Translations under genes and position numbers: made by a program
The notes under the pieces: model-generated
Seen by the model: only the letters and a program-made list of their open reading frames with translations
Told to the model about the DNA's origin: nothing
The model's database searches: none
In this document: positions 31,094 to 56,869 of the stretch, piece by piece
Layout: the number at the start of each line of letters is the position of its first letter
Numbering within the stretch: the first letter of the stretch is position 1
From: Haloplanus salinarum
GTDB lineage: Archaea; Halobacteriota; Halobacteria; Halobacteriales; Haloferacaceae
Direction: 5' to 3'
DNA length: 64,000 nucleotides
Assembly (NCBI RefSeq): GCF_024498175.1
Contig: NZ_CP101823.1
Span: 2,858,987 to 2,922,986 of the forward strand

Positions 31094-31387
31094 GCACGCG
31101 GCCGACCGACAGTCATAGGGAATCTTACACTACGTTCGTCTAATTATTCGCCGCTCACTGCCCACAGAGTAGCCATCTTACGACCTTATACAACCCTTAT
31201 CCACTATTAAACCGGACGAACATCCACCGAATCCCCTTCATATCAACAATTGTAAACGCTAACCCTTATATTATGTCGTAACAGTATCTTCTATCGCGAT
31301 TCGGAGAACGAACATGGCACGCAAATACGGAAACACGAACGTCTGTCCAAGCACTGCTCGCGAAGTACCGTCGGCGGAGGTGGCCGG
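31094..31387. other. AT-rich intergenic control region of amt-PII
   Basis: About 294 nt, far lower in GC than its surroundings. It holds ccttatacaaccctta (31184-31199), taaaccggac (31208-31217), a TATA-like cttata (31265-31270), aacagtatctt (31280-31290) and a 26-codon leader ORF. It closely resembles the control region of the nitrite reductase gene. Confidence 0.75.
31189..31290 (+). promoter_or_regulatory. Nitrogen-type promoter module of amt-PII
   Basis: Ordered blocks tacaaccctta (from 31189), taaaccggac (31208), taaacg (31253), cttata (31265) and aacagtatctt (31280). The same blocks occur upstream of nirA in the same order, with taaaccggac to cttata exactly 57 nt in both. cttata is the probable TATA box, giving a start near 31292. 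Confidence 0.65.
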
Positions 31388-31394
31388 ATGCTGA
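31314..31394 (+). CDS. Possible 26-codon leader ORF overlapping the amt start
   Basis: ATG 31314 opens a 26-residue ORF starting [17 protein letters not shown] and ending in Cys. Its TGA (31392-31394) lies 4 nt inside the amt reading frame, an overlap of 7 nt with ATG 31388. It is the first ATG after the predicted transcription start. A coupling or attenuation role is inferred from position only. Confidence 0.4.
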
Positions 31395-33040
31395 CGCCGC
31401 TGCAGGTCGATCCCTCGGCGCTGGCCTCAGGTGTCAACAACGTCTGGGTGTTGACCGTCACCTTCCTGATCTTCTTCATGCACGCCGGCTTCGCCATGCT
31501 GGAGGCGGGGCAGGTACGCTCGAAGAACGTCGCCAACCAGCTGACGAAGAACATGCTCACCTGGAGTATCGGCGTCATCGTCTACTTCCTGATCGGGGCC
31601 GGCGTCTCCGGGATTGTCGGCGGGGCGGCCGATCCGTTCGCCTACATCACCGGCGGCTCCGACACGTGGATCGGCTGGCTCTTCGGCGCGGTGTTCGCCA
31701 TGACGGCGGCGACCATCGTCAGCGGGGCCGTCGCCGGCCGCGCGAAACTCCGCGCGTACGTCACGTACACTATCATCCTCTCGGCGGTCATCTACCCCGT
31801 CGTGACGGGGCTGACGTGGGGTGGCGGCTACCTCTCGTCGGTGCTCGGCGTCGGGTTCAGCGACTTCGCGGGCGGCATGATCGTCCACGGCATGGGCGGC
31901 ATCGCCGGCCTCACGGCGGCGTGGGTCCTCGGCCCGCGGATGGACCGCTACAACGACGACGGGAGCGCGAACGTCATCCCCGGCCACTCGATGACCTTCG
32001 CCGTGCTGGGGACGCTCATCCTCTGTTTCGGCTGGTACGGCTTCAACGTCGGCACGGCGGCGACGGTGTTCGTCGTCGAGGAAGGCACCATGGCCCTCGG
32101 CGCCTTCGCCGACACCGTCGGCCGCGTGGCGCTGACGACGACGCTCGCGATGGGCGCGGGCGCCATCGGCGCCGCCGGCGTCTCGCTGCTCCAGACCGAG
32201 AAGGTCGATACGCTCTACGTCGCCAACGGGATGCTCGCCGGCCTCGTCGGCATCACGAGCATCCCCAACCTGTCGACGTGGTGGGGCGCGCTGCTGGTCG
32301 GCCTGCTGGCCGGCGGACAGCTCCCCATCGTCTTCAAGTTCGTCGAGAAGCGGCTCAAGATCGACGACGTCTGCGCCGTCTACCCCGTCCACGGGAGCGC
32401 CGGCGCGATGGGGTGTATCCTGCTCCCCTTCGTCTCGATCAACGGCTTCTCGACGCAGGTCCTGCTGGCACAGATCGTCAGCGTCACCGTCATCGGCGCC
32501 TGGACCATCGCCGCCACCGCGGTCGTGTTCGGTGCGCTGAAGGCCATCGGCCAGGCTCGCGTCGATCCCGACCACGAGCGTGAGGGGCTCGACGTCGCCG
32601 AGCACGGCGTCGACACCTACCCCGAGTTCGGCGACCAGCCCGACGCGGTGCCGGACGGCGGCGAGGAGATCCGCACCGACGGCGGCGAGGACGAGCGCGA
32701 CATCAAGATGGTCGTCGCGATGCTTCGCCCGGAGAAGCTGGGCGACGTGAAACAGGCCATCGCCGAGGTCGGTGCCCCCTCGATCACCGTGACGAACGTC
32801 TCCGGCCGCGGCTCCCAGCCCGCGAAGAAGGGCCAGTGGCGCGGCGAGGAGTACACGGTCGACCTCCACCAGAAGGTGAAAATCGAATGCGTGGTCGCGG
32901 ACGTACCCGCCGAAGACGTCGCCGAGGCCATTCGCGAGAGCGCGAACACGGGCGAACCCGGCGACGGCAAGATCTTCATCATGCCCGTCGACGAGGCGAT
33001 TCAGGTCCGGACGGGCAAGGAGGGGCCCGACGCGGTCTGA
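31388..33040 (+). CDS. Ammonium transporter Amt fused to a PII (GlnK) domain
   Basis: 550 residues in one frame. Residues 1 to about 400 are Amt: 11 helices, the twin pore histidines in [10 protein letters not shown] and [10 protein letters not shown], and [20 protein letters not shown] soluble acidic linker (about 400-437) leads into a complete PII domain (438-550): [18 protein letters not shown], a T-loop with [22 protein letters not shown] in which the Tyr51 equivalent is Tyr489, GDGKIF and VRTGKEG for ATP. In most organisms amt and glnK are separate genes of one operon. No in-frame Met precedes the PII beta-strand, so this looks like a true fusion. Confidence 0.95.
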
Positions 33041-33198
33041 GACCGTCCTCGACGCCGACCCCGATCGCGATCCCGACCGCGACCCGCTCCGGCCCGACGG
33101 TCTCCCCTGGTTACGGTTCCGTCGCCGGCGCCGGCTCGCGGTGAGCACCTTTTCTCCGACCCAGTACATTCTTTCCGCCGCCGCACACACCGGTAGGT

Positions 33199-34533
33199 AT
33201 GAACCACGAGAACTCCCGCGAGCTGTACGACCGGGCGCTGTCGGTCCTGCCCGGTGGCGTCAACTCGTCGGTCCGAGCGTCGATGCCTTACCCCTTCTTC
33301 GTCGAGGACGGCGACGGCGCACACGTCGTCGACGCCGACGGCAACCGCTATCTCGACTACGTGATGGGCTACGGGCCCCTGCTGTACGGCCACGACCTCC
33401 CCGACCCCGTCGAGGCGGCGATCCAGTCCCACGCCAGCGCCGGGCCGATGTACGGCGCGCCGACGGAGGTGGAGGTCGACCTCGCGGAGTTCGTGACCCG
33501 CCACGTCCCCTCCGTGGAGATGCTCCGGTTCGTCAACTCGGGGACCGAGGCGACGGTCTCCGCGGTCCGTCTGGCGCGGGCGTACACCGGGCGGGACAAG
33601 ATCGTCGTCATGCAGGGCGGCTACCACGGCGCCCAGGAGTCCACGCTCGTCGAGGGCGGTCCCGACGGCGCTCGACCGTCCTCGCCGGGCATCCCCGAGA
33701 GCTTCGCCGAGCATACGATCCCCGTCCCGTTCAACGACACCGACACCATCGCCGACGTGTTCGCGGAACACGGCGACGACATCGCCGCCGTGCTCACGGA
33801 GCCGATGCTGGGCAACATGGGCGTGGTGATGCCCGTCGACGGCTTCCACGAGTCGCTTCGCGACCTCTGTGACGAGTACGGCTCGCTGTTGATCTTCGAC
33901 GAGGTCATCACGGGCTTCCGGGTCGGCGGCCTCGGCTGTGCCCAAAGCGAGTTCGGGATCACGCCCGACCTGACGACGCTCGGCAAGATCGTCGGCGGCG
34001 GCTTCCCCGTCGGCGCCGTCGGCGGCCGGGCCGAAATCGTCGAACATCTCACTCCCGGCGGCGACGTGTTCCAGTCCGGCACCTTCTCCGGGCATCCGGT
34101 GACGATGGCCGCCGGGCTGGAGACCCTGCGGTACGCCGCCGAGAACGACGTCTACGACCACGTGAACGCGCTCGGCGAGCAGTTGCGTGCCGGCATCACC
34201 GACATCCTCGAGGAGCGGGCGCCGGAGTACACCGTCGTCGGCACCGGGAGCATCTTCAAGACGATCTTCACCCGCGAGGGGCGCGGCGGCGAGGGCCGTT
34301 GCGAGGCCGGCTGTCGCCAGCGCGAAGACTGCCCGAACTACGACGCCTGTCCCAAGACGGGCGCGGACGTGGCCGCAGCCGAGACCAACCGCTGGGAGCG
34401 GGTCTTCTGGCAGGAGATGAAGGATCGGGGGATCTTCCTCACCGCCAACCAGTTCGAGGCGCAGTTCGTGAGCTACGCCCACACGGAGGCGGACGTCCAG
34501 CGAACGCTCGACGCCTACCAGGACGCGCTGTAG
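33199..34533 (+). CDS. hemL: Glutamate-1-semialdehyde 2,1-aminomutase
   Basis: 444 residues, PLP aminotransferase fold. PLP lysine in [17 protein letters not shown] near residue 258, [13 protein letters not shown] near 235, and [13 protein letters not shown] at the N-terminus. It turns glutamate-1-semialdehyde into 5-aminolevulinate, the substrate of HemB. Residues 368-384 hold four cysteines (CEAGC, then DCPNYDAC) in an insertion not found in bacterial HemL. Such clusters bind metal in many proteins; here the role is unknown. It is about 160 nt downstream of amt-PII. Confidence 0.95.
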
Positions 34534-34591
34534 ACCGAACACCGCGCGACAGTGTGCGACACGAGAGACGGCCGTTATCGATCGGGACGAT

Positions 34592-34607
34592 AGTGTGATC
34601 GCACACT
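34592..34607. promoter_or_regulatory. Inverted repeat operator upstream of the VapBC-like pair
   Basis: agtgtgatcgcacact has perfect 6-bp arms around ATCG. It directly precedes the TATA-like atttatac (34611-34618), so a bound antitoxin would block TBP/TFB. A half-site cagtgtgcgac occurs at 34549-34559. Confidence 0.6.
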
Positions 34608-34635
34608 ACGATTTATACAGGGAGATCACCTACCC

Positions 34636-34893
34636 GTGGACGTGGGCAGTGAGAACGTCGACTCCGAGAGCAAAGTGTCGGGGAACCAGGCGAACATCCC
34701 CGCTCGCATCCGCCGGGAACTCGACATCGACGACGGCGACACGCTCCGCTGGCACGTCGAGGACGACGGCACGCTCCGCGTCCGGGTCGTTCAGCAGCGA
34801 AGCGGTACGTTCAGCGACTTCGACGGCTACGACGGTGAGCAGGAGACCGCAGTCACGACCGACCACGATGCGTGGGGCGTCGACACGGAATAG
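34636..34893 (+). CDS. AbrB/SpoVT-type antitoxin (VapB-like)
   Basis: 85 residues. The swapped-hairpin AbrB motif reads SKVSGNQANIPARIRRELDIDDGDTLRWHVEDDGTLRVRVV, with the DNA-binding PARIRRELDIDDGD turn. The C-terminal acidic part should wrap the toxin. It starts at GTG 34636, close to the predicted transcription start 25 nt after the TATA box, so leaderless. It directly abuts the toxin gene (34893/34894). Confidence 0.82.
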   Translation: MDVGSENVDSESKVSGNQANIPARIRRELDIDDGDTLRWHVEDDGTLRVRVVQQRSGTFSDFDGYDGEQETAVTTDHDAWGVDTE

Positions 34894-35328
34894 ATGCCGC
34901 GAGCACTCGTCGATACGACGGTCCTCTTCGCCGCTGCGTACCGTCGTGACGAGGCACACGACGGGGCCCTCGCCATCCTCACGGGCATCGATACCGCCGA
35001 CCTTCCGGAGGCAGTGATCCTCGACTACGTGCTCGCAGAGACGCTGAACGGACTGACGAACCACGCCGGACACGCGGCCGCCGTCGACTTTCTCGACCGA
35101 ATAGAGGAGAACGCGCGCTGCCACATCGACACCCTGACCGCGGACGAGTTCGCGACGGCGAAAGCGCTCTTCCGGCGGCACGAGGGGTTCTCGTTCGTCG
35201 ACGCCGCTATCGTGGCGTATATGCAAGCGGAGGGGCTCGGCTACCTCTACGCGTTCGACGACGACTTCGACGCCGCCGCGGACGTCTACCGCCTCGACAC
35301 GGCGACCGATCCCTATCAGCCGGAGTGA
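34894..35328 (+). CDS. PIN-domain ribonuclease toxin (VapC-like)
   Basis: 144 residues. PIN acids: Asp in RALVDTTVLFAAA (about residue 7), Glu in DYVLAETLNGL (about 50), Asp in GFSFVDAAIVAY (about 100) and Asp in AFDDDFDAA (about 120). PIN toxins cut tRNA or rRNA. With the AbrB-type gene just upstream and a palindromic operator, this is a type II toxin-antitoxin pair. Confidence 0.85.
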   Translation: MPRALVDTTVLFAAAYRRDEAHDGALAILTGIDTADLPEAVILDYVLAETLNGLTNHAGHAAAVDFLDRIEENARCHIDTLTADEFATAKALFRRHEGFSFVDAAIVAYMQAEGLGYLYAFDDDFDAAADVYRLDTATDPYQPE

Positions 35329-35337
35329 CGTTCGCGG

Positions 35338-36429
35338 TCACCCCTCGTCCTCGCGCTCGTGATACGGCGGCACGAACACGTCCGCCTCGACCATCTTCTC
35401 GATCTGTCGCTCGGTCACCTCCTCGGCGTAGGTGTCGTGATCGACGGGTTGGCGGTCCAGCCACAGGTTCTTCGGGTAGATCTCGCGGTCGTAGATGGGC
35501 TGGATCAGCTCGGTCCGCAGGTCCTTGATCCAGTTGGTCAGCGGCGAGGACGTGCGGTGTTCGCGGAGCCCTTCCACGTCGATCGGGGCGGCGCAGTACG
35601 AGGACCCGGCGCCGTAGGCGTGTTCGGCGAGGATCTGCCCGCGGTGGTCGACGATCATCGATCCGCCGCCGAAGGTGTCGACCGGCGTGTCGGCGTCCGG
35701 GGTGACGTAGTACGTCCCCAGGTTGGGGGCGACGACGTAGCAGGTGTTGTCGAGAGCGCGGGCGCGGTTCTGGATCTCCCAGCTGTCGTTCGCCACGAGG
35801 GGTTCGGGGCAGGCGATCCGGCAGATCACCTCGGCGCCGTTCATCGCGAGGCCGCGGACGTACTCGGGGTAGGCGCCCTCGATGGCCAGCGAGATGCCGA
35901 TGCGACCGATCTCGGTGTCGACGACGGGAAAGAGGTCGTCCAGGTCGTCGCCGTGGTGGTCGGTCCAGTCGTCCCACACGTCGTGGGGGGAGACCGATCG
36001 CTCGACGGGGAGCAGGGGCGTCACCTTCCGGTGGGTGTGGATCACGTCGCCGTCGGGGTCGATCACGAAGGCCGTGTTGTAGAATTTCCCGTCGTACTCG
36101 GGGGCCTTCTCCTTGGCCGAGGCGACGATGAAGGTCTCGAACTCCTTGGCGTACTCGCCGAGGGTCTCGGTTTCGGGGCCCGGGATGTCGATCGCGATCT
36201 CCTCCCGGTAGGTCGCGTGGTCCATGTCGAACACTTCGTCGGTGAACCCCTGGAGCGCGCCCTCGGGGAGGACGGCGAGCCGGACGGGGAGCTCGAGGCC
36301 GCTGAGCCACGTGGCCGCCGAGAGGGCCTCGTGCACGTGCTCCAGGTTCCGCTCGATGTCACTGCGTTCCTCGACCCCCCACACGGTCGGGGAGAGGCCG
36401 ACGGCGTTGTATTTCGGGATCTTCGACAT
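35338..36429 (-). CDS. Nitrilase-superfamily protein lacking the catalytic cysteine
   Basis: 363 residues. Nitrilase/amidase fold with Glu56 (VLPEGALQG) and Lys135 (THRKVTP) of the Glu-Lys-Cys triad in place. The usual G-x-x-I-C-x-E/D-x-x-x-P-E element reads GISLAIEGAYPE, so the nucleophile is Ala182 (codon GCC). Pfam carbon-nitrogen hydrolases without Cys cannot form the thioester. The fold is otherwise complete, including SWEIQNRARALDNTCY. It could bind or scaffold, or regulate a nitrogen metabolite. It lies between hemL and hemC, on the opposite strand. Confidence 0.85.
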   Translation of the reverse strand: MSKIPKYNAVGLSPTVWGVEERSDIERNLEHVHEALSAATWLSGLELPVRLAVLPEGALQGFTDEVFDMDHATYREEIAIDIPGPETETLGEYAKEFETFIVASAKEKAPEYDGKFYNTAFVIDPDGDVIHTHRKVTPLLPVERSVSPHDVWDDWTDHHGDDLDDLFPVVDTEIGRIGISLAIEGAYPEYVRGLAMNGAEVICRIACPEPLVANDSWEIQNRARALDNTCYVVAPNLGTYYVTPDADTPVDTFGGGSMIVDHRGQILAEHAYGAGSSYCAAPIDVEGLREHRTSSPLTNWIKDLRTELIQPIYDREIYPKNLWLDRQPVDHDTYAEEVTERQIEKMVEADVFVPPYHEREDEG

Positions 36430-36518
36430 GCGTCGGGGGGTCTCGGGTCCGACGGATATCGTTTGTGCCGTCGATCGGAACTGGTGGGCTTTTCACCCTC
36501 GGGAGCGACCGATCGGAC

Positions 36519-37604
36519 ATGAATACAGGCGGGACAATCCGGCTGGCGACACGCGGATCCGACCTCGCCCGCCGACAGACGGCGAACGTTCGCGACCGCC
36601 TCGACGGGCGACGCCGCAGCGTCGAGACGGTGGAGGTGTCGACCCGCGGCGACGAGATCAGGGACGAACTCATCCATCGCCTCGGGAAGACGGGGGCGTT
36701 CGTCCGCGCGCTCGACGAGCGGGTGCTCGACGGGGACGTCGACGCCGCGGTCCACTCGATGAAGGACATGCCCACGGAGTCGCCGCCGGAACTCGTGGTC
36801 GCCGGCGTGCCGGAGCGTGCCCCCGCGGGCGACGTGCTGGTGACGCCCGACGGGAGCGACCTCGACGACCTCCCGGCGGGCGCTGTCGTCGGCACTTCGT
36901 CGCTCCGGCGGGGCGCGCAACTGCGCCGCGAGCGGCCGGACCTCGACGTGGAACCGCTCCGGGGCAACGTCGACACCCGGGTGGAGAAACTGCTCGCGCC
37001 GACCCTCCAGCGCGAACACCAGCGGCGGCTGGACGCCGAGGACGAGGACGAGGGGGAGCATCCGGACGCGTTCGATCGCTCCGCCGAGGCGTGGTTCGAC
37101 GACCTCGCGGAACTGGAGCGGCGGGCGCTGGAACGGGCGGTCGATCGGGAGTACGACGCGATCGTCCTCGCGGAGGCGGGGCTGGAGCGAAGCGGGCTGC
37201 TGGGAACCGTCGGGACGGTCCGGCTGCCGAAACCGCAGTTCGTCCCCGCGCCGGGCCAGGGTGCCATCGCGGTGACGGCGCTGGCTGAGGGCGAGGCGAC
37301 GGCGACGATCCACGACCGGGTCGACGACCCGGTAACCCGCGTCGAGACGACCGTCGAGCGGACGGTCCTCGCGGAACTCGGCGGCGGCTGTATCGCCCCG
37401 ATCGGCGTCCACGCGGTCGTCCAGGGGGAGTACGTTCACGTGGCGGTGCAGGTGCTTTCCCTCGATGGCGAGGAGGCGATCGAGCGGACCGCCGACCTGC
37501 CGATCACGGACCACGCGGCGGCGGCGGCGTCGCTGGCCGCCGAGTTGCGCGAGGCGGGGGCGGCCGATCTGATCGACCGCGCCCGCGAGGAGGCAGAGGA
37601 GTGA
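36519..37604 (+). CDS. hemC: Hydroxymethylbilane synthase (porphobilinogen deaminase)
   Basis: 361 residues. IRLATRGSDLARRQTA at the N-terminus, AVHSMKDMPTE, GTSSLRRGAQLRRERP and the dipyrromethane-cofactor cysteine in ELGGGCIAPIGVHA near residue 290. It polymerises four porphobilinogens to hydroxymethylbilane. A charged, low-complexity insertion DAEDEDEGEHPDAFDR near 177-190 is haloarchaeal. Its stop overlaps the hemD GTG (GTGA), so they are coupled. Confidence 0.95.
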   Translation: MNTGGTIRLATRGSDLARRQTANVRDRLDGRRRSVETVEVSTRGDEIRDELIHRLGKTGAFVRALDERVLDGDVDAAVHSMKDMPTESPPELVVAGVPERAPAGDVLVTPDGSDLDDLPAGAVVGTSSLRRGAQLRRERPDLDVEPLRGNVDTRVEKLLAPTLQREHQRRLDAEDEDEGEHPDAFDRSAEAWFDDLAELERRALERAVDREYDAIVLAEAGLERSGLLGTVGTVRLPKPQFVPAPGQGAIAVTALAEGEATATIHDRVDDPVTRVETTVERTVLAELGGGCIAPIGVHAVVQGEYVHVAVQVLSLDGEEAIERTADLPITDHAAAAASLAAELREAGAADLIDRAREEAEE

Positions 37605-38350
37605 CCGGGGAGGAACCGAGCGGGCGGCCGCGCGTGGCGGTCTTCCGCCCGGACGACGACCGACTGGCCGCGGCCCGGTCGCTCCTCGCGGACCTCGGCG
37701 CCGAGGCGGTCCCCGACCCGATGCTCGCGGTCGAACCGACCGGCGAGCGGCCGCGGGAGGCCGACTACGTCGTGTTCACGAGCAAGACCGGCGCCGAACT
37801 CGCCGCGGACGCGGACTGGGAACCGGGGGCGGCGACGGTCGTCGCCATCGGGCCGAAGACCGCGGACGCGCTGGAGGCGGCGGGCTACGCGGTCGACCTG
37901 GTGCCAGACGCGTTCTCCTCGACCGGGCTGGTCGACCTACTCGCTCCCCGGGTCGGGGCGGCGACGGTGGAGGTGGCCCGGAGCGACCACGGCAGTCCCG
38001 TCCTGCTCGACGGCCTGCGCGACGCGGGCGCCGCGGTCCACGAGACGGTGCTCTACCGGCTGGTCCGCCCCGAGGGGGCGGGCGAGTCGGCGACCCTCGC
38101 CGCGGACGGCGCCCTCGACGCCGCCTGCTTCACCTCGTCGCTGACGGTCGAACACTTCCTCGACGCCGCCGCCGAGCGCGGGATCCGTGCGGACGCGGTC
38201 GGTGGCCTGAACGCCGCCGTCGTCGGCGTCATCGGGGAGCCCACGCGGGAGACCGCCGAGGGCGAGGGGATCGCGGTCGACGTGGTGCCCGCCGAGGCGA
38301 CCTTCGAGGCGCTGGCCCGCGAGACGGTCGCCCGCCTCGACTCACGCTGA
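37601..38350 (+). CDS. hemD: Uroporphyrinogen-III synthase
   Basis: 249 residues, GTG start overlapping the hemC stop. The family is poorly conserved, but the two-domain pattern is visible: RVAVFRPDDD, DYVVFTSKTGAELAAD, VVAIGPKTADALEAAGYAVDLVPDAFSSTGLVDLL, LYRLVRP and ACFTSSLTVEHFLDAAAERG, then GEPTRETAEGEGIAVDVVP. It closes the linear tetrapyrrole with ring-D inversion, giving the substrate of the methyltransferase at 58.9 kb. Confidence 0.9.
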   Translation: MTGEEPSGRPRVAVFRPDDDRLAAARSLLADLGAEAVPDPMLAVEPTGERPREADYVVFTSKTGAELAADADWEPGAATVVAIGPKTADALEAAGYAVDLVPDAFSSTGLVDLLAPRVGAATVEVARSDHGSPVLLDGLRDAGAAVHETVLYRLVRPEGAGESATLAADGALDAACFTSSLTVEHFLDAAAERGIRADAVGGLNAAVVGVIGEPTRETAEGEGIAVDVVPAEATFEALARETVARLDSR

Positions 38351-38353
38351 CGA

Positions 38354-47945: not shown

Positions 47946-50078
47946 ATGGGGAGAGGTACACGGGGACGCGTCGTAGCGACGGGAGTGATCGTGTTGCTCG
48001 TCGTCTCGGGGATGACGGCGACGGTGGCGGCCGCACCCACCCTGGACGTCACGGTCGATGGATCGGGCGTCGGCGACGGGGAGTCGATCACCGTCACCGA
48101 CGACCCGCAGTTCCGCATCGAGGCGAGCGGCGAGTCGTCGGTCGAATCGATCGAAGTGATGGTCGGCGGGGAGACGCGCCACTCGTTCCAGCCGGGATCG
48201 GAGTCGTTCTCGGAACTGGTGGAACTCGACATCGACGACGGCGAACACGAGGTGCGGATCGTCGCCGAGGGCTCGGGGACGACCGAGTGGACGGCGACGA
48301 TCCGGAAGGACTCGGACGGGCCGCGGGTGAGTTACACGTCGCCGTTCAGCGGGCCGGGACAACCGACGGGGACGGTGGTGATCGAGCACTCGGACGCGAC
48401 ACTCGCCGCCGACCTTTCGGACCGGAGCGGCGTCCAGTTGGTCCGGATCGAGCGGAACTACGAGTGGACGTTCGGCGGCCAGTCACAGCGTGACCGCGAG
48501 ACCTACCGGATCTCGGATCCCGGGGAGAACTTCTCCCGGCCCATGCTGTTCGGCCTTGGGGAGAACTCCCTGCGCGTCGAGGCCCGGGACGTCCACGGGC
48601 AACGGACCACCCACGAGATCACCGTCAGGGTCGAGGACGCCGAGCGGCCGTCGATCGACCTCGACCGGTTCGAGCGGAGCGGGAACACGCTCGAGATCGC
48701 CGGCGTCGCCGAGGACAACGTGAAGGTGCGGTCGCTCGACGTGCGGGTCGGACGGAACCGCAAGTCGGTGTTGACCGAGACGTCGAAGGAGCCGACCCGC
48801 GAACGGCTCTCGGCGGAGTTCGAGAGCACCGTCCAGCTTACGGGCGACGTCCAAGAGGTCACGCTCATCGCGACGGACGTTGCCGGCAACACCCGGGAGT
48901 GGACGGTCCCGATCGACTACCGGGGACACATCGTGCCGACCATCGACATCGACGACGAGGCGACGCGGATCGAAGGCGACAGCGTCGCCGTCACCGGGAC
49001 GGTCACCGACGGACAGTTCGGGCGGGTCGTCGTCGAGACGGTCGACGCCGACGGGAACGTCGTCTCGACGGCCACCGCCTACGACGGCGACACGACCGAC
49101 CAGGTCGACGTGCGGGCGCGGCTCGGTCGCGCCGACGGGGAGACGACCGTCGTGGTCCGGGCCGTCGACGTCGACGGGGAGGAACACGAGGAGACGCTGA
49201 CGCTGGATGCGGGGGGATCCGAGACGGCGACGAGCGCCGAGACGGTGACGCCGGCGGCCACCGACGCACCCTCGACGCCGGCGGCCACCGACGCACCCTC
49301 GACGCCGGCGACGACGGCGGCACCCGCCGTCGACGACGCGCCGCAGCTGGCGCTCGGGGGGACGACGAGCCGGATGCCGGTGCCGCTCCCGCTCCCGTTC
49401 CCGCTCTCGATCCCGCTGCCGATCCCCTTCGCCGGGACCGTCGTGGCGGTGGTGGTAGTCGGCCTGGCGATGGCCGTCAGCGCCGTCGGGGAAGCGGGCG
49501 TCGAACCCGGTGCCGGACCGGCCGCGACCGACGAACCGGCCGCCGGGACCGGCGAGTCGGCGGACCGCCGGGACGCCGCGTCGACGGCGGGCGGTGGGAC
49601 CGAACCACGGGACCGGGAGCGTCCCGGCGGGGCGACGTCGACGCCGCGTTCCGACGCCAGGGGCGGCGAGACGGCTCCGCCACCGGGCCATAACGGAGCC
49701 AGCCCGGAGACGGGACGGCCCGCCGGCGAGCCGGCGAACGACCCGTCCGCCACGGGCGAGACGGGGGGAAGCGGGGGGGCGGCGCCGGAACCGGAACCCG
49801 AACCGGAACCCGCCGTCGACGTGACCGACCACCTCGGCGTCGGATCGATGGCCGACGTCGGCGCCGACGAGGTGGCCAGCCTGGCGACGGAACTCGACGC
49901 GGACGAGACGGAGACGGTGGCGACCGCCGCCCGCGTGCTGGCGGCACTGGCCGAGGAGCGGCCGGGACTGGTCGCGGGCACCGAGGCCGAGTCCCGGCTC
50001 CGTGACCTGCGTCTCGACCCGGATCCGGCGGTGAGTGAGGCGGCGAGTACGGCCGTCCGCCGGCTGACCGACGAGTGA
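47946..50078 (+). CDS. Large exported protein with Ig-like domains, Thr/Pro linker and cytosolic tail
   Basis: 710 residues. Signal peptide VVATGVIVLLVVSGMTATVAAAP. Residues 30-425 look like several Ig/Big-like beta domains (SVESIEVMVGGETRHSF; RSLDVRVGRNRKSV; VTLIATDVAGNTREWTVPI). A TPAATDAPS linker (about 432-460) is followed by the odd PVPLPLPFPLSIPLPIPF run, then a transmembrane helix AGTVVAVVVVGLAMAVSAVG (about 494-513). The remaining 195 residues are Gly/Pro-rich with a helical HEAT-like end (DEVASLATELDADETETVATAARVLAALAEE). Not a known S-layer glycoprotein; surface sensing or adhesion is inferred. Confidence 0.7.
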   Translation: MGRGTRGRVVATGVIVLLVVSGMTATVAAAPTLDVTVDGSGVGDGESITVTDDPQFRIEASGESSVESIEVMVGGETRHSFQPGSESFSELVELDIDDGEHEVRIVAEGSGTTEWTATIRKDSDGPRVSYTSPFSGPGQPTGTVVIEHSDATLAADLSDRSGVQLVRIERNYEWTFGGQSQRDRETYRISDPGENFSRPMLFGLGENSLRVEARDVHGQRTTHEITVRVEDAERPSIDLDRFERSGNTLEIAGVAEDNVKVRSLDVRVGRNRKSVLTETSKEPTRERLSAEFESTVQLTGDVQEVTLIATDVAGNTREWTVPIDYRGHIVPTIDIDDEATRIEGDSVAVTGTVTDGQFGRVVVETVDADGNVVSTATAYDGDTTDQVDVRARLGRADGETTVVVRAVDVDGEEHEETLTLDAGGSETATSAETVTPAATDAPSTPAATDAPSTPATTAAPAVDDAPQLALGGTTSRMPVPLPLPFPLSIPLPIPFAGTVVAVVVVGLAMAVSAVGEAGVEPGAGPAATDEPAAGTGESADRRDAASTAGGGTEPRDRERPGGATSTPRSDARGGETAPPPGHNGASPETGRPAGEPANDPSATGETGGSGGAAPEPEPEPEPAVDVTDHLGVGSMADVGADEVASLATELDADETETVATAARVLAALAEERPGLVAGTEAESRLRDLRLDPDPAVSEAASTAVRRLTDE
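49247..49300. repeat. 27-bp tandem repeat encoding TPAATDAPS
   Basis: Two exact copies of a 27-nt unit (beginning gacgccggcggccaccgacg) at 49247-49273 and 49274-49300, with a partial third copy after. It codes for the 9-residue linker repeat of the surface protein. Confidence 0.9.
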
Positions 50079-50306
50079 TCACAGTCGGCGAGTGTTCCAC
50101 CCGAGGGCGGCGTTGACGGGACAGCGGCGGAGGGCCGCGGTGACGAACATGACGACCGCGAACACGAGGATCGCTCCGACGGTGACCGTCCGAACGCGAG
50201 CGGTCAGGCCGCCACCGTAGGCGACGAGGGCCGTCGCCGACAGGGTGGCGAGGACGCCGAGGCCGATCCGAACCGCGCGGTCGGTGCCGCCGACGTTCGG
50301 TTCCAT
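50079..50306 (-). CDS. DUF2892 small membrane protein
   Basis: 75 residues: NVGGTDRAVRIGLGVLATLSATALVAYGGGLTAR and a second helix VTVGAILVFAVVMFVTAA, ending CPVNAALGWNTR. This is the YgaP-type inner-membrane module (DUF2892), often fused to or near rhodaneses; none is nearby. The single conserved Cys before PVNAALGWNT is typical. Confidence 0.85.
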   Translation of the reverse strand: MEPNVGGTDRAVRIGLGVLATLSATALVAYGGGLTARVRTVTVGAILVFAVVMFVTAALRRCPVNAALGWNTRRL

Positions 50307-50342
50307 GGGGGACGTACGCTGCGCGGCGGCAAAAGCCGTCGG

Positions 50343-51896
50343 TTACTCCAGATAGCCCAGGTCGCGCAGGCGTTCCTGTGCTTCCTCGTCCATGTCGGCG
50401 ACGGCGTCGTCGGTCACGTCGGCGTCGGCGGCGCCGGTCCACGCGCCGCCGACGGCCGATTCGAAGTCCGCGAGGGCGCGCTCGACGGCACGGACGGCCG
50501 GGTCGTCGCCGACGGCGGCGGCACGGTCCTCCGTCTCCCCGGGGTCCTCGTCGAGGCGGTAGGCCTCGTCGGGGATGCGGTCGATCCGGACGTACTTCGC
50601 GTCCGGGCGGCGCGCGGCGCGCATCCGGGCGTAGAACCGGGAGTCCTCGGGAATGTCGATGCCGGCGCCCGCGGCCTTCTCCTCCAGTTGCTTGAGTTCG
50701 ACCACCGATCGGGAGTACTCGACGAAGCCGACGGCACCGTCGGGCGCGGCCGCCTGCCCGGGGTCGGGGTCGTCGACGGCGTCGAAGGCGCGGTAGTCGT
50801 CGGCGAGCAGGGAGCGGGTCGGGTCGCGGGCGACGGCCGTCTCGCCGGGGGCGGCGGGGTCGCCGCCCGCGACGTCGAGGGCGTCGAGGACGGTGTGGTA
50901 CAGGTCGACGAGTTCGACGGTGTCGGTCCGCCGGTCGGCGGTCAGGTCGGGATGTTTCACCATGAGGGGGACGTTCACCAGCGGGTCGTAGAGGCAGAAC
51001 TCGTGGCCGTAGAGGTCGTGTTCGCCGTGGAGTTCGCCGTGGTCCGCACAGACCACGACCGTCGTGTCGTCCCACTCCCCTCGCTCCTTGAGCCAGTCGA
51101 ACAAGCGGGTGAGCTGGGCGTCGATGTGGGCGATTTCGGCGTCGTAGAGGCCGCGGATATCGTCCCACTCGTCGTCGTCGATGTCGCGGGCACCCGAGTT
51201 GTACTCCTTCGAGTTCTGACAGACCGCCGTGTCGTCGACGCCGGGGGCGAACTCCGCGGCGAACTCGTCGGGCGGGTGGTACGGCAGGTGGGCGTCCATC
51301 AGGTTGACGAACGCGAACCAGTCCTCGGAGTCGTCGACGAACTCCATCGTCCGATCGATCACGGCGGGGGTCTTGGAGTCGGCGCCCTCGCCGCCCGCGA
51401 GGTACTCGTGGGCGACGTTGCCGAGCGAGACGAGTTTGTCGGCGATGGTCCGGAGTCGGTCACTGTCGTTCATCGTCTTCCAGGCCCGGGCGAGCGGGCC
51501 GGAGAGCAGGTCGCCGGGCATCACCTCGAAGAAGTTGTCCTGGGCGTCGAAACCGTCGGTGAGGTGAGTGTAGGGGGTGATCCAGGCGTTCGATGAGTAA
51601 CAGGCGGTGTCGTAGCCGGCGGCGGAGAGCGTCTCGGCGAGCGTGGTGGCGCCCTCCAGATAGGGGTTCTCCTGGTCGGCGCCGTGCTGACTGGGGTAGA
51701 GGCCGGTGAAGAGGGAGGCGTGAACGGGGAGGGTCCAAGGGGCGGGGGCGACGGCCTCCTCGAAGACGGTCGCCTCGGACGCGAAGTCGGCGAGACCGGG
51801 CGTCGTCGGCCGGTCGTAGCCGTACGGCGTCAGGTGGTCGGCCCGAACGGTGTCCATGACGACGAAGAGGACGTTCCCGGGGGCGTCGCGCGACAT
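50343..51896 (-). CDS. Sulfatase-family hydrolase with Thr at the nucleophile position
   Basis: 517 residues, alkaline-phosphatase superfamily. Metal ligands in VVMDTVRADH near the start and CADHGELHGEHDLYGH near 285. The position that holds formylglycine-forming Cys/Ser in sulfatases (C-x-P-S-R) reads WTLPVHASLFTG, giving Thr55. Thr nucleophiles occur in phosphatases and phosphoethanolamine/LTA-type transferases of this superfamily, so this may be a phosphotransferase or phosphodiesterase. No transmembrane helix or signal is apparent. Confidence 0.75.
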   Translation of the reverse strand: MSRDAPGNVLFVVMDTVRADHLTPYGYDRPTTPGLADFASEATVFEEAVAPAPWTLPVHASLFTGLYPSQHGADQENPYLEGATTLAETLSAAGYDTACYSSNAWITPYTHLTDGFDAQDNFFEVMPGDLLSGPLARAWKTMNDSDRLRTIADKLVSLGNVAHEYLAGGEGADSKTPAVIDRTMEFVDDSEDWFAFVNLMDAHLPYHPPDEFAAEFAPGVDDTAVCQNSKEYNSGARDIDDDEWDDIRGLYDAEIAHIDAQLTRLFDWLKERGEWDDTTVVVCADHGELHGEHDLYGHEFCLYDPLVNVPLMVKHPDLTADRRTDTVELVDLYHTVLDALDVAGGDPAAPGETAVARDPTRSLLADDYRAFDAVDDPDPGQAAAPDGAVGFVEYSRSVVELKQLEEKAAGAGIDIPEDSRFYARMRAARRPDAKYVRIDRIPDEAYRLDEDPGETEDRAAAVGDDPAVRAVERALADFESAVGGAWTGAADADVTDDAVADMDEEAQERLRDLGYLE

Positions 51897-51959
51897 GTCT
51901 CCCCGTGGGTCGGTAGAGCGAATAAAGGCCGCGGTCCCGGCTGTCGGACTGCGGGCCGG

Positions 51960-52124
51960 CTATCGCCAGTCGTCGAGTCCGGTCGCGTCGTCGAGTTGGA
52001 CGGACACCCAGGCGTCGTCACGGGAGACGTCGGCGATGACGAACTCCGGGAGTCCCGGCCCCTCGTCCACCGCGGCCATGACATCCGAACCCTGCCCGCC
52101 TGCTGCCGTCACGTCGGGCGCCAT
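51960..52124 (-). CDS. DUF7556-type small acidic protein
   Basis: 54 residues: MAPDVTAAGGQGSDVMAAVD, then GLPEFVIADVSRDDAWVSV and LDDATGLDDWR at the end. It matches a haloarchaeal family I remember as DUF7556; function unknown. The minus-strand TATA tttatatgag (about 52148-52157) predicts a start almost at the ATG, i.e. leaderless. A 17-bp palindrome covers the start codon. Confidence 0.65.
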   Translation of the reverse strand: MAPDVTAAGGQGSDVMAAVDEGPGLPEFVIADVSRDDAWVSVQLDDATGLDDWR

Positions 52125-52137
52125 GTGTGACACATGG
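52121..52137. promoter_or_regulatory. 17-bp perfect palindrome over the DUF7556 start codon
   Basis: CCATGTGTGACACATGG is a perfect inverted repeat about a central G. On the minus strand it contains the ATG and would sit at +1 of a leaderless transcript, a classical repressor position. Confidence 0.65.
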
Positions 52138-52251
52138 TCACACCCTCATATAAACACGTCGATACGACGGCGGTCACGGCGCCGAGACGGGTGGACGGGG
52201 CGTCGAAAGGCGTTCGCAGAGTATTAGAGGGTGGGCGGCGGAACGGGGAGC

Positions 52252-53097
52252 ATGCACGTAGCCGACGCGATGACGCCCCGCGCGGACGTCGTGACGGTCG
52301 AACTCCCGGGGACCCGGGACGACGCCCTCGAATATCTGCAGGAGCGGGGCTTCTCGTCGATTCCCGTCGTCAAGCCGACGGACGACGGCGAAGCGTACCG
52401 CGGCCTGGTCTCGCGGGACGACCTCATCGAGAACCCGGACGAGGACCAGCTCGCGCTGTTGATGCGGGAGGTACCGACGACGACGGCGGACGCCGACCTC
52501 GTCGAGGTGGCCCGCATGATGGTCGCCGAGGACGCCCGGCGGATCCCCGTCGTCGACGGGGAGCTCGAGGGGATCCTCACCGTGACCGACGTGGTCCGGG
52601 CCATCGCCCGGGGGGACGTGGACGGCGGGACGAACGTCGATGCGCTGGCGTCCCGGGACGTGAACGCCGTCTACCACGCGACGCCGCTGCCGGTCGCCGA
52701 ACGGGAGATCAACTACGCGAACGTCCCCTACGCGGTCGTCCTCGACGACGACGGCGAGATGACGGGCATGCTGACCGAGGTGGACATCATCGAGGTGGCC
52801 CGCGTCGTCGAGGGCGAGGACGACACCGGCGAGAGCATCGCCAACCAGGACGACGAGTGGATGTGGGAGGGGATCAAGGCCGTCGGCAACCGCTACTACC
52901 CCACCCGGAACGTCGAGATCCCGCGCGAGCCCGTCAGCACCTTCATGACCGACGACCTGGTGACGGTGTCGGGACACCGGACGGCCAAGGAGGTGGCCCG
53001 CGTCCTGCTCTCGAACGACGTCGAACAGGTGCCGCTGGTCGACGGCAGCGCGCTCGTCGGCATCGTCCGGGACGTCGACCTGCTGGAGGGCGTATGA
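52252..53097 (+). CDS. Four-CBS-domain protein coupled to glyS
   Basis: 281 residues with four CBS repeats, each with a GhLTxxDlhe-like end: YRGLVSRDDLIEN, LEGILTVTDVVRAIA, MTGMLTEVDIIEVARV and VGIVRDVDLLEGV. A pair of CBS dimers would bind adenosine nucleotides and sense energy state. Its stop overlaps the glyS ATG (ATGA at 53094-53097), so it is co-translated with glycyl-tRNA synthetase. Regulation of GlyS is an inference from coupling only. Confidence 0.88.
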   Translation: MHVADAMTPRADVVTVELPGTRDDALEYLQERGFSSIPVVKPTDDGEAYRGLVSRDDLIENPDEDQLALLMREVPTTTADADLVEVARMMVAEDARRIPVVDGELEGILTVTDVVRAIARGDVDGGTNVDALASRDVNAVYHATPLPVAEREINYANVPYAVVLDDDGEMTGMLTEVDIIEVARVVEGEDDTGESIANQDDEWMWEGIKAVGNRYYPTRNVEIPREPVSTFMTDDLVTVSGHRTAKEVARVLLSNDVEQVPLVDGSALVGIVRDVDLLEGV

Positions 53098-54911
53098 GCG
53101 ACGCGCGAGCCATCACCGAACTCGCGAAGCGCCGCGGCTTCTTCTTCGGGGCGAACGAGTCGTACGGCGGCGTCGCCGGGTTCTACACCTTCGGCCCCGA
53201 GGGGGCCGCCCTCAAGCGCAACGTCGAGGCGGCGTGGCGGGATCGCTTCACCGTCCGCGAGGGCAACGACGAGATCGAGGCGCCGACGATCATGCCCGAA
53301 CCGGTCTTCGAGGCCTCGGGCCACCTCGACGGCTTCGACGACATGCTCGTCGAGTGTGGCGAGTGCGGCGAGAGCCACCGCGCCGACCACCTGGTCGAGG
53401 ACGCGAGCGACGTCGAGGAGGCCGAGAGCCTGCCGATTCCCGAGGTCGAGGAGCTCGTCGCCGAGTACGAGATCGCCTGCCCGTCATGCGGTGCGGCGCT
53501 GGCCGGGCGCTCGATCGAGGAGTTCAACCTCATGTTCGCGACGGCCATCGGCCCCGGGAGCGGCCAGCCCGGCTACCTCCGCCCCGAGACGGCCCAGGGC
53601 ATCTTCGTCGAGTTCCCCCGCCTGAAGGAGTACGCGCGCAACAAACTCCCGTTCGGCGTCACCCAGATCGGCCGGGCCTACCGCAACGAGATCAGCCCCC
53701 GCAAGGGCATCGTCCGAACCCGCGAGTTCACGCAGGCTGAGTTGGAGCAGTTCGTCGATCCCGACGACGACGACCCGCCCCTCGACCGCGTCGCGGACGT
53801 GTCGCTGCGGCTCTACCCCGCCGACGAACAGGAGGACCCCGATGGCGAGTACGTCGAGGCGACGGTCGCCGAGGCCGTCGAGGAGGGAATCGTCGCGAGC
53901 GACTGGGTGGCGTACTACCTGGGCGTCGCGCGGGAGTGGTACGACCGGATCGGCGTCGACGGCGACCGGTTTCGCTTCCGTCAGCACCTGCCCGGCGAGC
54001 GCGCCCACTACGCCGCGGACTGCTGGGACGCCGAGAGCGAAGTGAGCGGGGCGGCGGGCGACCTCGCCGACCCGACTGCGGGCGACTGGATCGAGATCGC
54101 CGGCTTCGCCTACCGCGGCGACTACGACCTCTCGAAACACGCCGAACACGCCGACGACGACTTCACGGTCTTCGAGCAGTACGACGAGCCCCGGACCGTC
54201 GAGCGGGCGGTCGCCGACCCCGACATGAGCGTCCTCGGCCCCGAGTTCGGCGGGCGGGCCGGCGACGTCGCGGACGCACTCCGTGCCCTCGCCGAGCGCG
54301 ATCCGTCGGCCTTCGACGGCGACGAGGTGACCGTCGAGGTCGACGGCGAGGCCGTGACCGTCGACAGCGCGGTGGCGAACTTCCGGATCGAGGAGCGGAC
54401 GGAGGCGGGTGAACACGTCACGCCCCACGTGGTCGAACCCTCCTTCGGCGTCGACCGGACGGTCTACACCCTGATCGCCCACGGCTACGACCACGACCTG
54501 ATCGACGGCGAGGAGCGCACCTACCTCTCGCTGTCGCCGGAGGTGGCGCCGACGGACGTGGCCGTCTTCCCCCTCGTGAGCGACGGGGCGCTCGAAACCC
54601 TCGCCGCGGACGTCGTGGCCGACCTGCGGGCGGCGGGGCTGTCGGTCGCCCACGACGACTCCGGCAACATCGGACGGCGCTACCGCCGGCAGGACGAGGT
54701 CGGCACGCCGCTGTCGGTGACCGTCGACCACGAGAGCGTCGAGGAGACGCCCGCCACGGTGACGGTCCGCGACCGGGACACAACCGCACAGGTACGGGTC
54801 CCGGTCGACGAACTCGCGACGGAACTGGAGCGGGTCCTCGAGAGCGGCGGGAGCTTCGACGCCCTGCTCGCGGACTACGACCGGGTCGAGACGGACGTCA
54901 CGCGCACCTGA
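53094..54911 (+). CDS. glyS: Glycyl-tRNA synthetase (class II)
   Basis: 605 residues. Class II motifs: motif 1 region RRGFFFGANESYGGVAGFYTFGPEG, the zinc-binding ECGECGESHRADHL and ACPSCGAAL insertion, motif 2 VTQIGRAYRNEISPRKGIVRTREFTQAELE, and motif 3 VVEPSFGVDRTVYTLI. The anticodon-binding domain starts near LSPEVAPTDVAVFPLV. It charges tRNA-Gly. It is the eukaryote/archaeal alpha2 type. Coupled to the upstream CBS protein; the dolichol kinase-like gene starts 3 nt after its stop. Confidence 0.97.
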   Translation: MSDARAITELAKRRGFFFGANESYGGVAGFYTFGPEGAALKRNVEAAWRDRFTVREGNDEIEAPTIMPEPVFEASGHLDGFDDMLVECGECGESHRADHLVEDASDVEEAESLPIPEVEELVAEYEIACPSCGAALAGRSIEEFNLMFATAIGPGSGQPGYLRPETAQGIFVEFPRLKEYARNKLPFGVTQIGRAYRNEISPRKGIVRTREFTQAELEQFVDPDDDDPPLDRVADVSLRLYPADEQEDPDGEYVEATVAEAVEEGIVASDWVAYYLGVAREWYDRIGVDGDRFRFRQHLPGERAHYAADCWDAESEVSGAAGDLADPTAGDWIEIAGFAYRGDYDLSKHAEHADDDFTVFEQYDEPRTVERAVADPDMSVLGPEFGGRAGDVADALRALAERDPSAFDGDEVTVEVDGEAVTVDSAVANFRIEERTEAGEHVTPHVVEPSFGVDRTVYTLIAHGYDHDLIDGEERTYLSLSPEVAPTDVAVFPLVSDGALETLAADVVADLRAAGLSVAHDDSGNIGRRYRRQDEVGTPLSVTVDHESVEETPATVTVRDRDTTAQVRVPVDELATELERVLESGGSFDALLADYDRVETDVTRT

Positions 54912-54913
54912 GG

Positions 54914-55504
54914 ATGGGCGGGGAACTCCGGCGGCGCGCCGTCCACGCCAGCGGCGTCGGCTTCCCGGCGCTGTACCTGCTGGACCTCGCGGCGTGGCGG
55001 ACCGTCGGCTACCTCCTCGTCGTCGGCTCCGCCGTCGCCGCGATACTGGAGGCGGTGCGGCTCCTGATCGGCCTGGACTGGGCCGTCTACGAGACGCTCA
55101 CCCGGGAGTACGAACGGGACAACGTCGCCGGCTACGCCCTCTACATGTTCAGCATGACCGCCGTCGCGTGGGTCTTCGACCCGCCGGTCGCGGTCCCCGG
55201 GATGCTCATGCTCGCGCTCGGCGATCCGGTGAGCGGCCTCCTCGGCTCGAACGAGGCGGGGCGGGCCAAACGCGCCGGGGTCGTCGCCGCCATGTTCGCC
55301 GTCTGCTTCGCGCTCGGGACGCTCGTGTTGGTCCGGACGGTGGCGCCCCCGACGGCGGCCCTGGCCGCGGCCGTCGGCGCGGCGGGCGCCACCGTCGCCG
55401 ACGGCTACACCCCCGTCGTCGCCGGCTACGTCGTCGACGACAACATCACCATCCCCCCGGCCGCCTGCCTGGGGATCTGGCTCGTCCTGCGGTTCGGCGC
55501 GTAG
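54914..55504 (+). CDS. Dolichol kinase-like / CDP-alcohol-type membrane kinase
   Basis: 196 residues with about six hydrophobic helices. RRRAVHASGVGFPALYLL at the start, LALGDPVSGLLGSN in the middle and DNITIPPAACLGIWLVL at the end match the CTP-dependent dolichol/phosphatidate cytidylyltransferase-like (SEC59/DgkA-related) family. Dolichyl phosphate is the lipid carrier for archaeal N-glycosylation. It follows glyS by 3 nt, so it is co-transcribed with no clear functional link. Confidence 0.8.
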   Translation: MGGELRRRAVHASGVGFPALYLLDLAAWRTVGYLLVVGSAVAAILEAVRLLIGLDWAVYETLTREYERDNVAGYALYMFSMTAVAWVFDPPVAVPGMLMLALGDPVSGLLGSNEAGRAKRAGVVAAMFAVCFALGTLVLVRTVAPPTAALAAAVGAAGATVADGYTPVVAGYVVDDNITIPPAACLGIWLVLRFGA

Positions 55505-55618
55505 GGCCCCCACCGTGGGCCGCCGCCCTGCACGCACACCATTATACACCTTAGAAAAGATAATATGACGAATAGATAGAGTTATATGTGGACGTTCGAA
55601 TTTCGAGTACGGATACAG

Positions 55619-55732
55619 ATGGAGAACGTGAACTTCTCTTGGCCTTCCGGTGCCCGTTCGTTTGGAGACAGCGACGGTTCCGAGGCGAACCGGTCGAAAC
55701 GCGCGGTCGGCGTGTCGCCGAGGGGGCGGTGA
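55619..55732 (+). CDS. Possible 37-residue leader ORF upstream of the FNT gene
   Basis: ATG 55619 opens MENVNFSWPSGARSFGDSDG and continues to TGA 55730-55732, 6 nt before the FNT ATG. A TATA-like gttatatg (55581-55588) predicts a start close to this ATG. There is no homology evidence. It parallels the leader ORFs of amt and nirA. Confidence 0.35.
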   Translation: MENVNFSWPSGARSFGDSDGSEANRSKRAVGVSPRGR

Positions 55733-55738
55733 GCCGCG

Positions 55739-56566
55739 ATGTACGACGAGGAGATGGCGGACATCGGCGACGCGGCGGCGGCACAGATCGAGTTGATCGA
55801 GAAGCGTCTTCCGGCGTATCTCGTCCACGCGGCGATGGCGGGGGCGTACATCGGCATCGCCATCGTTCTGGTCTTCGTGCTGGGGACGGGGCTGCTGGGG
55901 ACGGTCTTCGAACCGCTCAGCGGCATCCTGATGGCCGCGACCTTCGGGCTCGCCCTCAGTCTCGTGCTCATCGCCGGCTCCGAGCTGTTCACCGGGAACG
56001 CGATGATCATGGGCGTCGGCGCGCTGTCGGGGCGGACCGACTGGGGCGACCTCGGCAGGGTGTGGACGTACTCGTGGGTCGGCAACCTCTTCGGCTCCGT
56101 CCTCGTGGCGGCGATGGCCGTCTACGGTGGGGTGTTCGCCGACTCGTCGCTCGTCGTCGACGTTGCGGCGAACAAGATGACACTGTCGCCGCTGGAGCTG
56201 TTCATCCAGGCGGTGTTCTGCAACTGGCTCGTCGTGTTGGCCGTCTGGTGTAACTTCCGGCTGGAGAACGCCGTCGCGAAACTCGTGATGGTCTGGTGGT
56301 GTCTGTTGGCGTTCATCGGGGCGGGGTTCGAACACAGCGTCGCCAACATGACCGTCCTGACGCTCGCGAACCTCCTGCCGCACTCCACGGCGGCGGTGTC
56401 CTGGAGCGGGTGGCTCTACAACATCTCCATCGTCACCGCCGGCAACGCCTTCGCCGGCGTCGTCATGATGGGCGGTGCCTACTGGTACATCAGCGAGTCC
56501 TACAAGCTCGAACTGCCGAGCGGTTCGACGTCGGTGTCGACGTTCAGTAGCGCCGACGACGACTGA
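55739..56566 (+). CDS. nirC: Formate/nitrite transporter (FNT) channel, likely NirC
   Basis: 275 residues, about six helices. FNT signatures: AGAYIGIAIVLVFVLG near the first helix, GLALSLVLIAGSELFTGNAMIM (second re-entrant half), VFCNWLVVLAVWCNF, and FEHSVANMTVLTLANL. It lets nitrite (or formate) across the membrane as a pentamer. Next to the siroheme nitrite reductase, nitrite uptake is the sensible cargo. The tail is hydrophilic with Ser/Thr and Asp. Confidence 0.9.
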   Translation: MYDEEMADIGDAAAAQIELIEKRLPAYLVHAAMAGAYIGIAIVLVFVLGTGLLGTVFEPLSGILMAATFGLALSLVLIAGSELFTGNAMIMGVGALSGRTDWGDLGRVWTYSWVGNLFGSVLVAAMAVYGGVFADSSLVVDVAANKMTLSPLELFIQAVFCNWLVVLAVWCNFRLENAVAKLVMVWWCLLAFIGAGFEHSVANMTVLTLANLLPHSTAAVSWSGWLYNISIVTAGNAFAGVVMMGGAYWYISESYKLELPSGSTSVSTFSSADDD

Positions 56567-56869
56567 TCCGTCTTCGGCGCGCACCGCGCACGCATCGCCG
56601 GTCCCGAACCGGCGGGCGAACCGCGTTCGGATCGCAAATACGATGAACGTACGTCGAACTGAGTCGGTTTTTCTGGACAGAATACAACCTTATATCCCGG
56701 GTATTCCATAATAAACCGGACATCCATCCGTCGAGATGGCCCCTAATACAAGAATATAAACGGTTATGCTTATACATCGCCATCAACAGATACTCTCCTG
56801 TGCGAAATATTGAATCTTCAGGCCGTAACACACGTGAATTTGGACGAACTCCGAACTTCGGTGGTCGCG
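56567..56869. other. Control region of nirA
   Basis: 303 nt, low GC from 56630 on. It contains tacaacctta (56683), taaaccggac (56712-56721), ataaacg, cttata (56769-56774) and caacagatact (56784), matching the amt control region, and a 25-codon leader ORF. Nothing else recognised. Confidence 0.75.
56683..56794 (+). promoter_or_regulatory. Nitrogen-type promoter module of nirA
   Basis: tacaacctta (56683), taaaccggac (56712), taaacg (56757), cttata (56769) and aacagatact (56785) in the same order as upstream of amt-PII. taaaccggac to cttata is 57 nt in both; tacaacc to taaaccggac is 29 nt here and 19 nt at amt, one helical turn more. cttata is the likely TATA box. Confidence 0.65.

Follow-up and report, generated by a model that had tools for sequence, protein, structure and literature searches.

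The 64-kb stretch of Haloplanus salinarum DNA analyzed here (64,000 nucleotides of contig NZ_CP101823.1, positions 2,858,987 to 2,922,986; referred to below, at its full length, as the window) carries two promoter regions of closely similar design, one upstream of an amt gene with a C-terminal P-II domain (amt-PII) and one upstream of the nitrite reductase gene nirA. At the level of the regulon, it is close to certain that the two belong to a nitrogen-assimilation promoter module that is real, specific, and conserved. The fuller reading that we favor, with moderate confidence and from sequence comparison, is that both sites would be copies of a haloarchaeal inorganic-nitrogen-assimilation promoter module that acts under nitrogen limitation, is the binding site of an Lrp/AsnC protein from the glnA-linked clade, and is followed by a translationally coupled micro-open reading frame (micro-ORF). 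Among its parts, wrapping of the promoter by Lrp and translational coupling to the micro-ORF appear moderately supported. The elements of the two modules and their genes in the window are as follows.

31179 to 31191, forward strand: amt-PII distal box TACGACCTTATAC, from the alignment with relatives and the window scan.
31208 to 31225, forward strand: amt-PII middle element TAAACCGGAC, with an imperfect GGACGNNCGTCC-type palindrome at 31214 to 31225.
31251 to 31272, forward strand: amt-PII proximal promoter box TGTAAACGCTAACCCTTATATT, with TATA at 31266.
31314 to 31394, forward strand: amt leader micro-ORF of 26 codons, its stop overlapping the amt start.
31388 to 33040, forward strand: amt with C-terminal P-II domain (PF00909 and PF00543).
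56645 to 56656, forward strand: nirA upstream palindrome GAACGTACGTCG, a loosely placed, weaker element centered 39.5 nt before the distal TTATA.
56683 to 56695, forward strand: nirA distal box TACAACCTTATAT, from the alignment with relatives and the window scan.
56712 to 56729, forward strand: nirA middle element TAAACCGGAC, with the imperfect palindrome GGACATCCATCC at 56718 to 56729.
56755 to 56776, forward strand: nirA proximal promoter box TATAAACGGTTATGCTTATACA, with TATA at 56770.
56800 to 56877, forward strand: nirA leaderless-type micro-ORF, starting with GTG, 25 codons, its stop TAG overlapping the nirA start.
56870 to 58636, forward strand: nirA, ferredoxin-type nitrite reductase (PF01077, PF03460).

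The original prediction, made from the sequence of the window, listed several blocks shared by the two control regions, and these are indeed present, with taaaccggac at 31208 and 56712, cttata at 31265 and 56769, and exactly 57 nt from one to the other at both genes. It also gave the gap between the upstream block and taaaccggac as 19 nt at amt and 29 nt at nirA, a difference of one helical turn, and this was an error of register. In the promoter alignments (42, then 41), the homologous distal box of amt is TACGACCTTATA at 31179, with one mismatch, opposite TACAACCTTATA at 56683 in nirA; the prediction took tacaaccctta at 31189 instead because a second, partial box lies about 10 bp downstream. 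With the amt box at 31179, the gap is 29 nt as at nirA, and there is therefore no helical-turn difference. The distance from TTATA to TTATA is likewise the same, 80 nt, in both modules (31186 to 31266; 56690 to 56770), and a distal TACRNCCTTATAY paired with a proximal ..AAC..TTATA at any spacing of 50 to 110 nt occurs at only these two places in the window. The tacaacctta block alone is not unique, as was noted at the outset: an isolated copy, TACAACCTTA, stands at 28329, flanked by a DUF5789 gene on one side and a PHP-domain gene on the other, and the same scan finds no proximal box paired with it. The aacag(t)at(a)ct block is present at both window sites as described; elsewhere it was seen, by eye, only in Haloplanus-type loci.

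In the 3.45-Mb genome as a whole, the exact TAAACCGGAC occurs three times, the third copy lying inside a mechanically called open reading frame. A genome scan with a sequence-only model (R1) scores the two window sites at 63.9 and 60.6 bits, to be read as scores of sequences from the model's own training set, and the next match, at 12.6 bits (E 0.37), is not significant. A second NIR/SIR-family gene of this genome, 54% identical to nirA, has no module match, and no nasA was matched at E 1e-100. The window amt-PII shares 93% identity with its counterpart in Haloplanus ruber.

Aligned upstream regions from relatives retain the blocks upstream of orthologues; their absence there, which the original prediction had named as a refutation, was not observed. 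Training of model R1 and of the box matrices used 32 amt and 7 nirA loci together with the two window sites. Among the loci counted below, training data accordingly account for 32 of 80 amt and 7 of 30 nirA (plus the window's own nirA), and for none of the nasA or major facilitator superfamily (MFS) transporter loci. Among 38 genomes picked for two or more model matches, each match being assigned to the next gene and Pfam run on representatives, the 121 matches comprise 48 amt, 31 nirA, 21 nasA, 12 MFS transporters, 2 mobA-like genes, and 7 others; one of the nirA is a short gene, and the three weakest matches of all fall in the last class. That 114 of the 121 precede amt, nirA, nasA, an MFS transporter, or a mobA-like gene, despite training on amt and nirA alone, strongly supports the prediction that one conserved module governs ammonium uptake together with nitrite reduction, and extends it to nasA and the nitrate-type MFS transporter.

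The spacing of the two boxes is nearly constant. Both were found in 72 of 80 named amt-PII loci, at 79 nt in 12, 80 nt in 42, 81 nt in 17, and 59 nt in one; the same test hit 2/80 shuffled copies and 2/80 reverse complements, the latter both at 79 nt in the near relatives L045 and L053. In a first nasA set, drawn almost wholly from one family, 25 of 30 loci had the pair (80 nt in 6, 81 nt in 18, 72 nt in one), as did 18 of 30 nirA loci (79 nt in 3, 80 nt in 13, 81 nt and 91 nt in one each); shuffled controls of these two sets gave none, and reverse complements gave 1/30 and 2/30, respectively. Spacings of 59, 71-72, and 91 nt are too few to serve as proof of helical phasing and are not used as such. 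The 59-nt locus (L058) has a second distal-like box, and the 91-nt nirA locus (L095) is likely spurious, carrying the alternative nirA promoter described below. Each position of CCTTATA in the distal box is 93 to 98% conserved over 78 rows of the amt alignment, in flanking sequence that is divergent.

The module, roughly 100 nt in length, is widespread among haloarchaea. Model R1 matches 134 of 146 genomes of the family, 171 of 194 of the class, and 52 of 294 of the phylum, 43 of these last lying within the order (53 sampled). The 9 matches outside the order, among about 241 phylum genomes, are marginal and near chance (E 0.003 to 0.009). An amt gene was found in 15 of 26 genomes without a model match. 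In one such genus, g10 (L352, L353), the region before amt has a distal-type box with an A/T-rich proximal stretch following about 51 nt later, possibly a shortened form of the module.

Internal architecture was compared in the 128 modules that passed thresholds (74/81 amt, 18/30 nirA, 25/30 nasA, and 11/12 narK regions; the remainder were dropped), and the start-codon counts given below use the same modules. The consensus by class consists of the distal box TACRNCCTTATAY, a middle part TATYCG..AAATNGGACG, and the core promoter TNAACGNTTANNNTTATA, with TAAACGATTACCGTTTAGTA as its nasA version; the TATA of the core promoter comes 80 to 81 nt after the distal TTATA. A GGACGNNCGTCC-like palindrome is centered 33.5 nt after the distal TTATA; 61% of amt and 39% of nirA modules match it at 7 positions or more out of 10, and its nasA and narK forms are weak. 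With the threshold raised to 9 of the 10 positions, GGACGNNCGTCC occurs in 24/74 amt, 3/18 nirA, 5/25 nasA, and 1/11 narK modules versus 12/342 control regions. Over positions -60 to +100, the strongest period of A/T content is 10.5 bp in all four classes, with a common phase of -1.8 to -2.3 nt and block-shuffle p values of 0.0005 to 0.001 at 10.5 bp and 0.0005 to 0.03 over all periods. Per-sequence power at 10.5 bp averages 3.8 in the 128 modules. The average for 105 control upstream regions (A/T at least 0.42) is 1.7, or 2.0 when the 66 richest in A/T are taken; the control set is lower in A/T than the modules and includes some module promoters. Such helically phased A/T-rich sites are of the kind suited to wrapping by Lrp, although the signal is weaker without the two boxes.

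Could this likeness merely have been inherited from duplicated or horizontally shared operons, with the whole module lacking a regulatory role? Common descent of the upstream DNA is conceivable, as several genomes have amt, nirA, and nasA in close proximity, but short blocks at fixed spacing persist across many genera in which the intervening sequence diverges, and the same phase is found in four unrelated gene types. We consider this explanation very improbable.

Translation appears to begin at a fixed distance from the proximal box. An ATG or GTG stands exactly at TATA+30 in 62/74 amt, 12/18 nirA, and 5/11 narK modules and at TATA+29 in 19/25 nasA modules; no comparable start-codon peak follows the distal box in the same modules. 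In amt and nirA, this start usually opens a micro-ORF of about 20 to 34 codons, with its stop at or close to the main start. Stops in the micro-ORF frame number 0, 3, and 0 in three amt sets, versus 34/14, 32/19, and 24/11 in the other frames, and in 67 of 74 loci the leader length preserves a single frame relation. At the window nirA, GTG 56800 lies exactly 30 nt after TTATA and the micro-ORF stop overlaps ATG 56870; at the window amt, the codon at TATA+30 (31296) is GCG, and an in-frame ATG at 31314 opens the frame. A known structured RNA leader was rejected for window positions 28000-60000, where an Rfam scan gave no match above the gathering score. Some nasA leaders (1412-1495 in L275, L276, L280, L282, L283, L287, L289, and L300) carry a conserved 8-bp hairpin, GTGTGATTGTAAATCACAC, in which 2 of 8 pairs are changed on both sides and which, at several of these loci, shares sequence with the CDCKSH codons of the micro-ORF.

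The start-codon counts bear on whether the module is simply a pair of tandem core promoters, the distal box being a TATA box with its transcription factor B recognition element (BRE) and a second transcript starting 80 nt upstream. The two boxes are alike (..CCTTATA and ..NTTATA) and share orientation, as that arrangement would predict. A second promoter would not require the constant distance of 80 to 81 nt, however, and the distal box, unlike the proximal one, is followed by no start-codon peak at +30. The CC before the distal TTATA is moreover 97 to 98% invariant, versus 2 of 38 TTATA in control upstream regions, and tandem promoters thus seem to us improbable.

The original prediction saw here the target of an unknown haloarchaeal nitrogen regulator plus TFB. 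For that regulator, an Lrp/AsnC protein of the glnA-linked clade is the probable candidate, as suggested by gene neighborhoods, the phasing of A/T tracts, and a single published pull-down. An Lrp/AsnC gene lies directly downstream of amt in 9 of the 80 named loci and nearby on the opposite strand in one more. Further genomes have an amt-adjoining Lrp as well (L257:11099-11557, L258:15562-16011, L255:10603-11052), and amt-glnK-lrp neighborhoods occur in several haloarchaeal lineages. In a tree of 19 Lrp proteins, from which we excluded a distant Lrp (30% identical) upstream of amt in L049 and one of two near-identical Natronomonas copies, the 12 amt-linked proteins group with the glnA-linked Lrp of H. 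salinarum (99/99), apart from six other Lrps of the same genome, some of them long-branched. An Lrp of one clade is thus linked to the target operons, as expected of a promoter under Lrp/AsnC control. Published findings are cited here and below from the open-licence main text of PMC articles. There, an Lrp encoded next to glnA is reported from a pull-down with the nasABC promoter, and a 5-nt mutation of that promoter lowers activity on nitrate (PMC8143581).

A different regulator, for example, another helix-turn-helix dimer on GGACGNNCGTCC or on the distal box, might instead bind the module, with the Lrp link coincidental. Presence of the glnA-linked Lrp does not track the module, as the protein was found in 35 of 36 genomes tested whether or not the module is present, and the enrichment of GGACGNNCGTCC in amt modules is also expected from a dimeric non-Lrp factor. 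Against this stand the twelve amt-linked Lrps of one clade, the phased A/T tracts, and the pull-down as given in the main text cited above. In addition, none of 10 neighbor proteins scanned with Pfam is a regulator, although 3 had no match at all (recurring families only, with gene calls from a crude composition filter). We regard another regulator as rather unlikely.

The non-tracking of Lrp is one of several results that weigh against the reading of an Lrp-bound module with a coupled micro-ORF. The glnA-lrp region of H. salinarum itself has no module. Of 16 amt upstream regions inspected in no-match genomes, some have a degenerate module and others none recognizable. A second, broader set of 40 nasA loci yielded the full pair in 7, all at 80 nt; several of the rest are operon-internal, and others have the proximal box alone. 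Together, the two nasA sets cover 70 of the nasA matches listed. The pair is missing from 12 of 30 nirA loci, and 11 of those 12 have another promoter in common, approximately GTATTTNTTAAA-N6-RYAYTTTATG by eye, within about 300 nt of the start (L092, L093, L096, L099, L100, L101, L102, L103, L105, L107, and L108), pointing to another mode of nirA regulation in some members of the family. With the boxes removed, the periodicity signal weakens: p at 10.5 bp is 0.009 for amt, 0.002 for nirA, 0.018 for nasA, and 0.063 for narK (0.11, 0.01, 0.23, and 0.18 over all periods), and the strongest period of narK is no longer 10.5 bp. Many nasA micro-ORF frames end after 2 to 3 codons. Synonymous fractions in the micro-ORFs are 0.27, 0.14, and 0.18 versus 0.22, 0.21, and 0.23 expected, which indicates no purifying selection on the peptide; a conserved small protein is thereby rejected for the sets tested. 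Because synonymous changes are not in excess, it is translation, rather than the peptide, that seems to be conserved.

Known systems resemble the module only in part. The Hfx. mediterranei nasABC promoter and its Lrp/AsnC regulator HFX_0246 likewise involve a haloarchaeal nitrogen-assimilation promoter, an activator-type site, and an Lrp gene beside glnA, and nasA regions putatively from the genus Haloferax have a degenerate form of the module. However, the main text of the two reports describes a 5-nt region-2 site (TAGAT) and a separate palindrome rather than a bipartite 80-nt module, and does not describe amt, nirA, or narK (PMC8143581, PMC8229911). TAGAT occurs at +22 of the distal box in 4 of 25 nasA modules, and the putative Haloferax-genus nasA regions contain no TAGAT at all, so any match to the published site would be tentative. 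The denitrification motif CGAAYATDKTYG is also a conserved cis element of haloarchaeal nitrogen genes, but one that serves respiratory genes (PMC10062603, PMC11218638). Membership in a denitrification regulon was rejected, CGAAYATDKTYG being in neither window module and, with at most one mismatch, in 3/128 modules versus 4/342 controls. The H. volcanii motif AAAGACTAART was derived partly from amt upstream regions, with an Lrp proposed as regulator in the main text (PMC6801745). With up to one mismatch, it was found in 0/128 modules and was likewise rejected. NrpR of methanogens is comparable as a case of archaeal nitrogen-gene control, its operator being GGAA-N6/8-TTCC. An NrpR regulon was discarded as well: the NrpR-type domain (PF01995) is absent from the H. 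salinarum genome and present in 4 of 59 genomes of the class, and the operator is in neither window module and in 1/128 modules. Two haloarchaeal genomes (G166 and G178) carry PF01995, with amt and the module undetected. Within the open-licence main text, the module itself is not described for haloarchaeal nitrogen genes, for which different motifs are given, and Haloferax papers describe the control of nitrogen assimilation as poorly understood or unknown (PMC3831643, PMC8143581, PMC6801745).

For the Lrp-bound module with its coupled micro-ORF, the mechanism we propose is that, when nitrogen is limiting, an Lrp/AsnC multimer from the glnA-linked clade would bind the phased tracts along one face of the helix, from the distal box to the core promoter. 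Bound Lrp may bend or wrap the DNA and thereby aid TBP and TFB at the TATA box, and the leaderless micro-ORF would then hand ribosomes to amt or nirA by termination-reinitiation. A bolder version, offered tentatively and somewhat doubtful to us, is a single, previously undescribed master nitrogen regulon of amt-glnK, nasA, the nitrate transporter, and nirA, in which an Lrp nucleoprotein would wrap a phased promoter of more than 100 bp and translation of the leaderless micro-ORF, conserved where its peptide is not, would gate translation of the main gene.

An 80-nt, 10.5-bp-phased layout with a coupled leaderless micro-ORF would be unusual in archaeal promoter design. The module also names a candidate clade for the regulator and makes the question testable by a few promoter mutants. 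For most of the haloarchaea sampled, it provides a precise cis target, such that membership in the nitrogen-assimilation regulon can be predicted from sequence.

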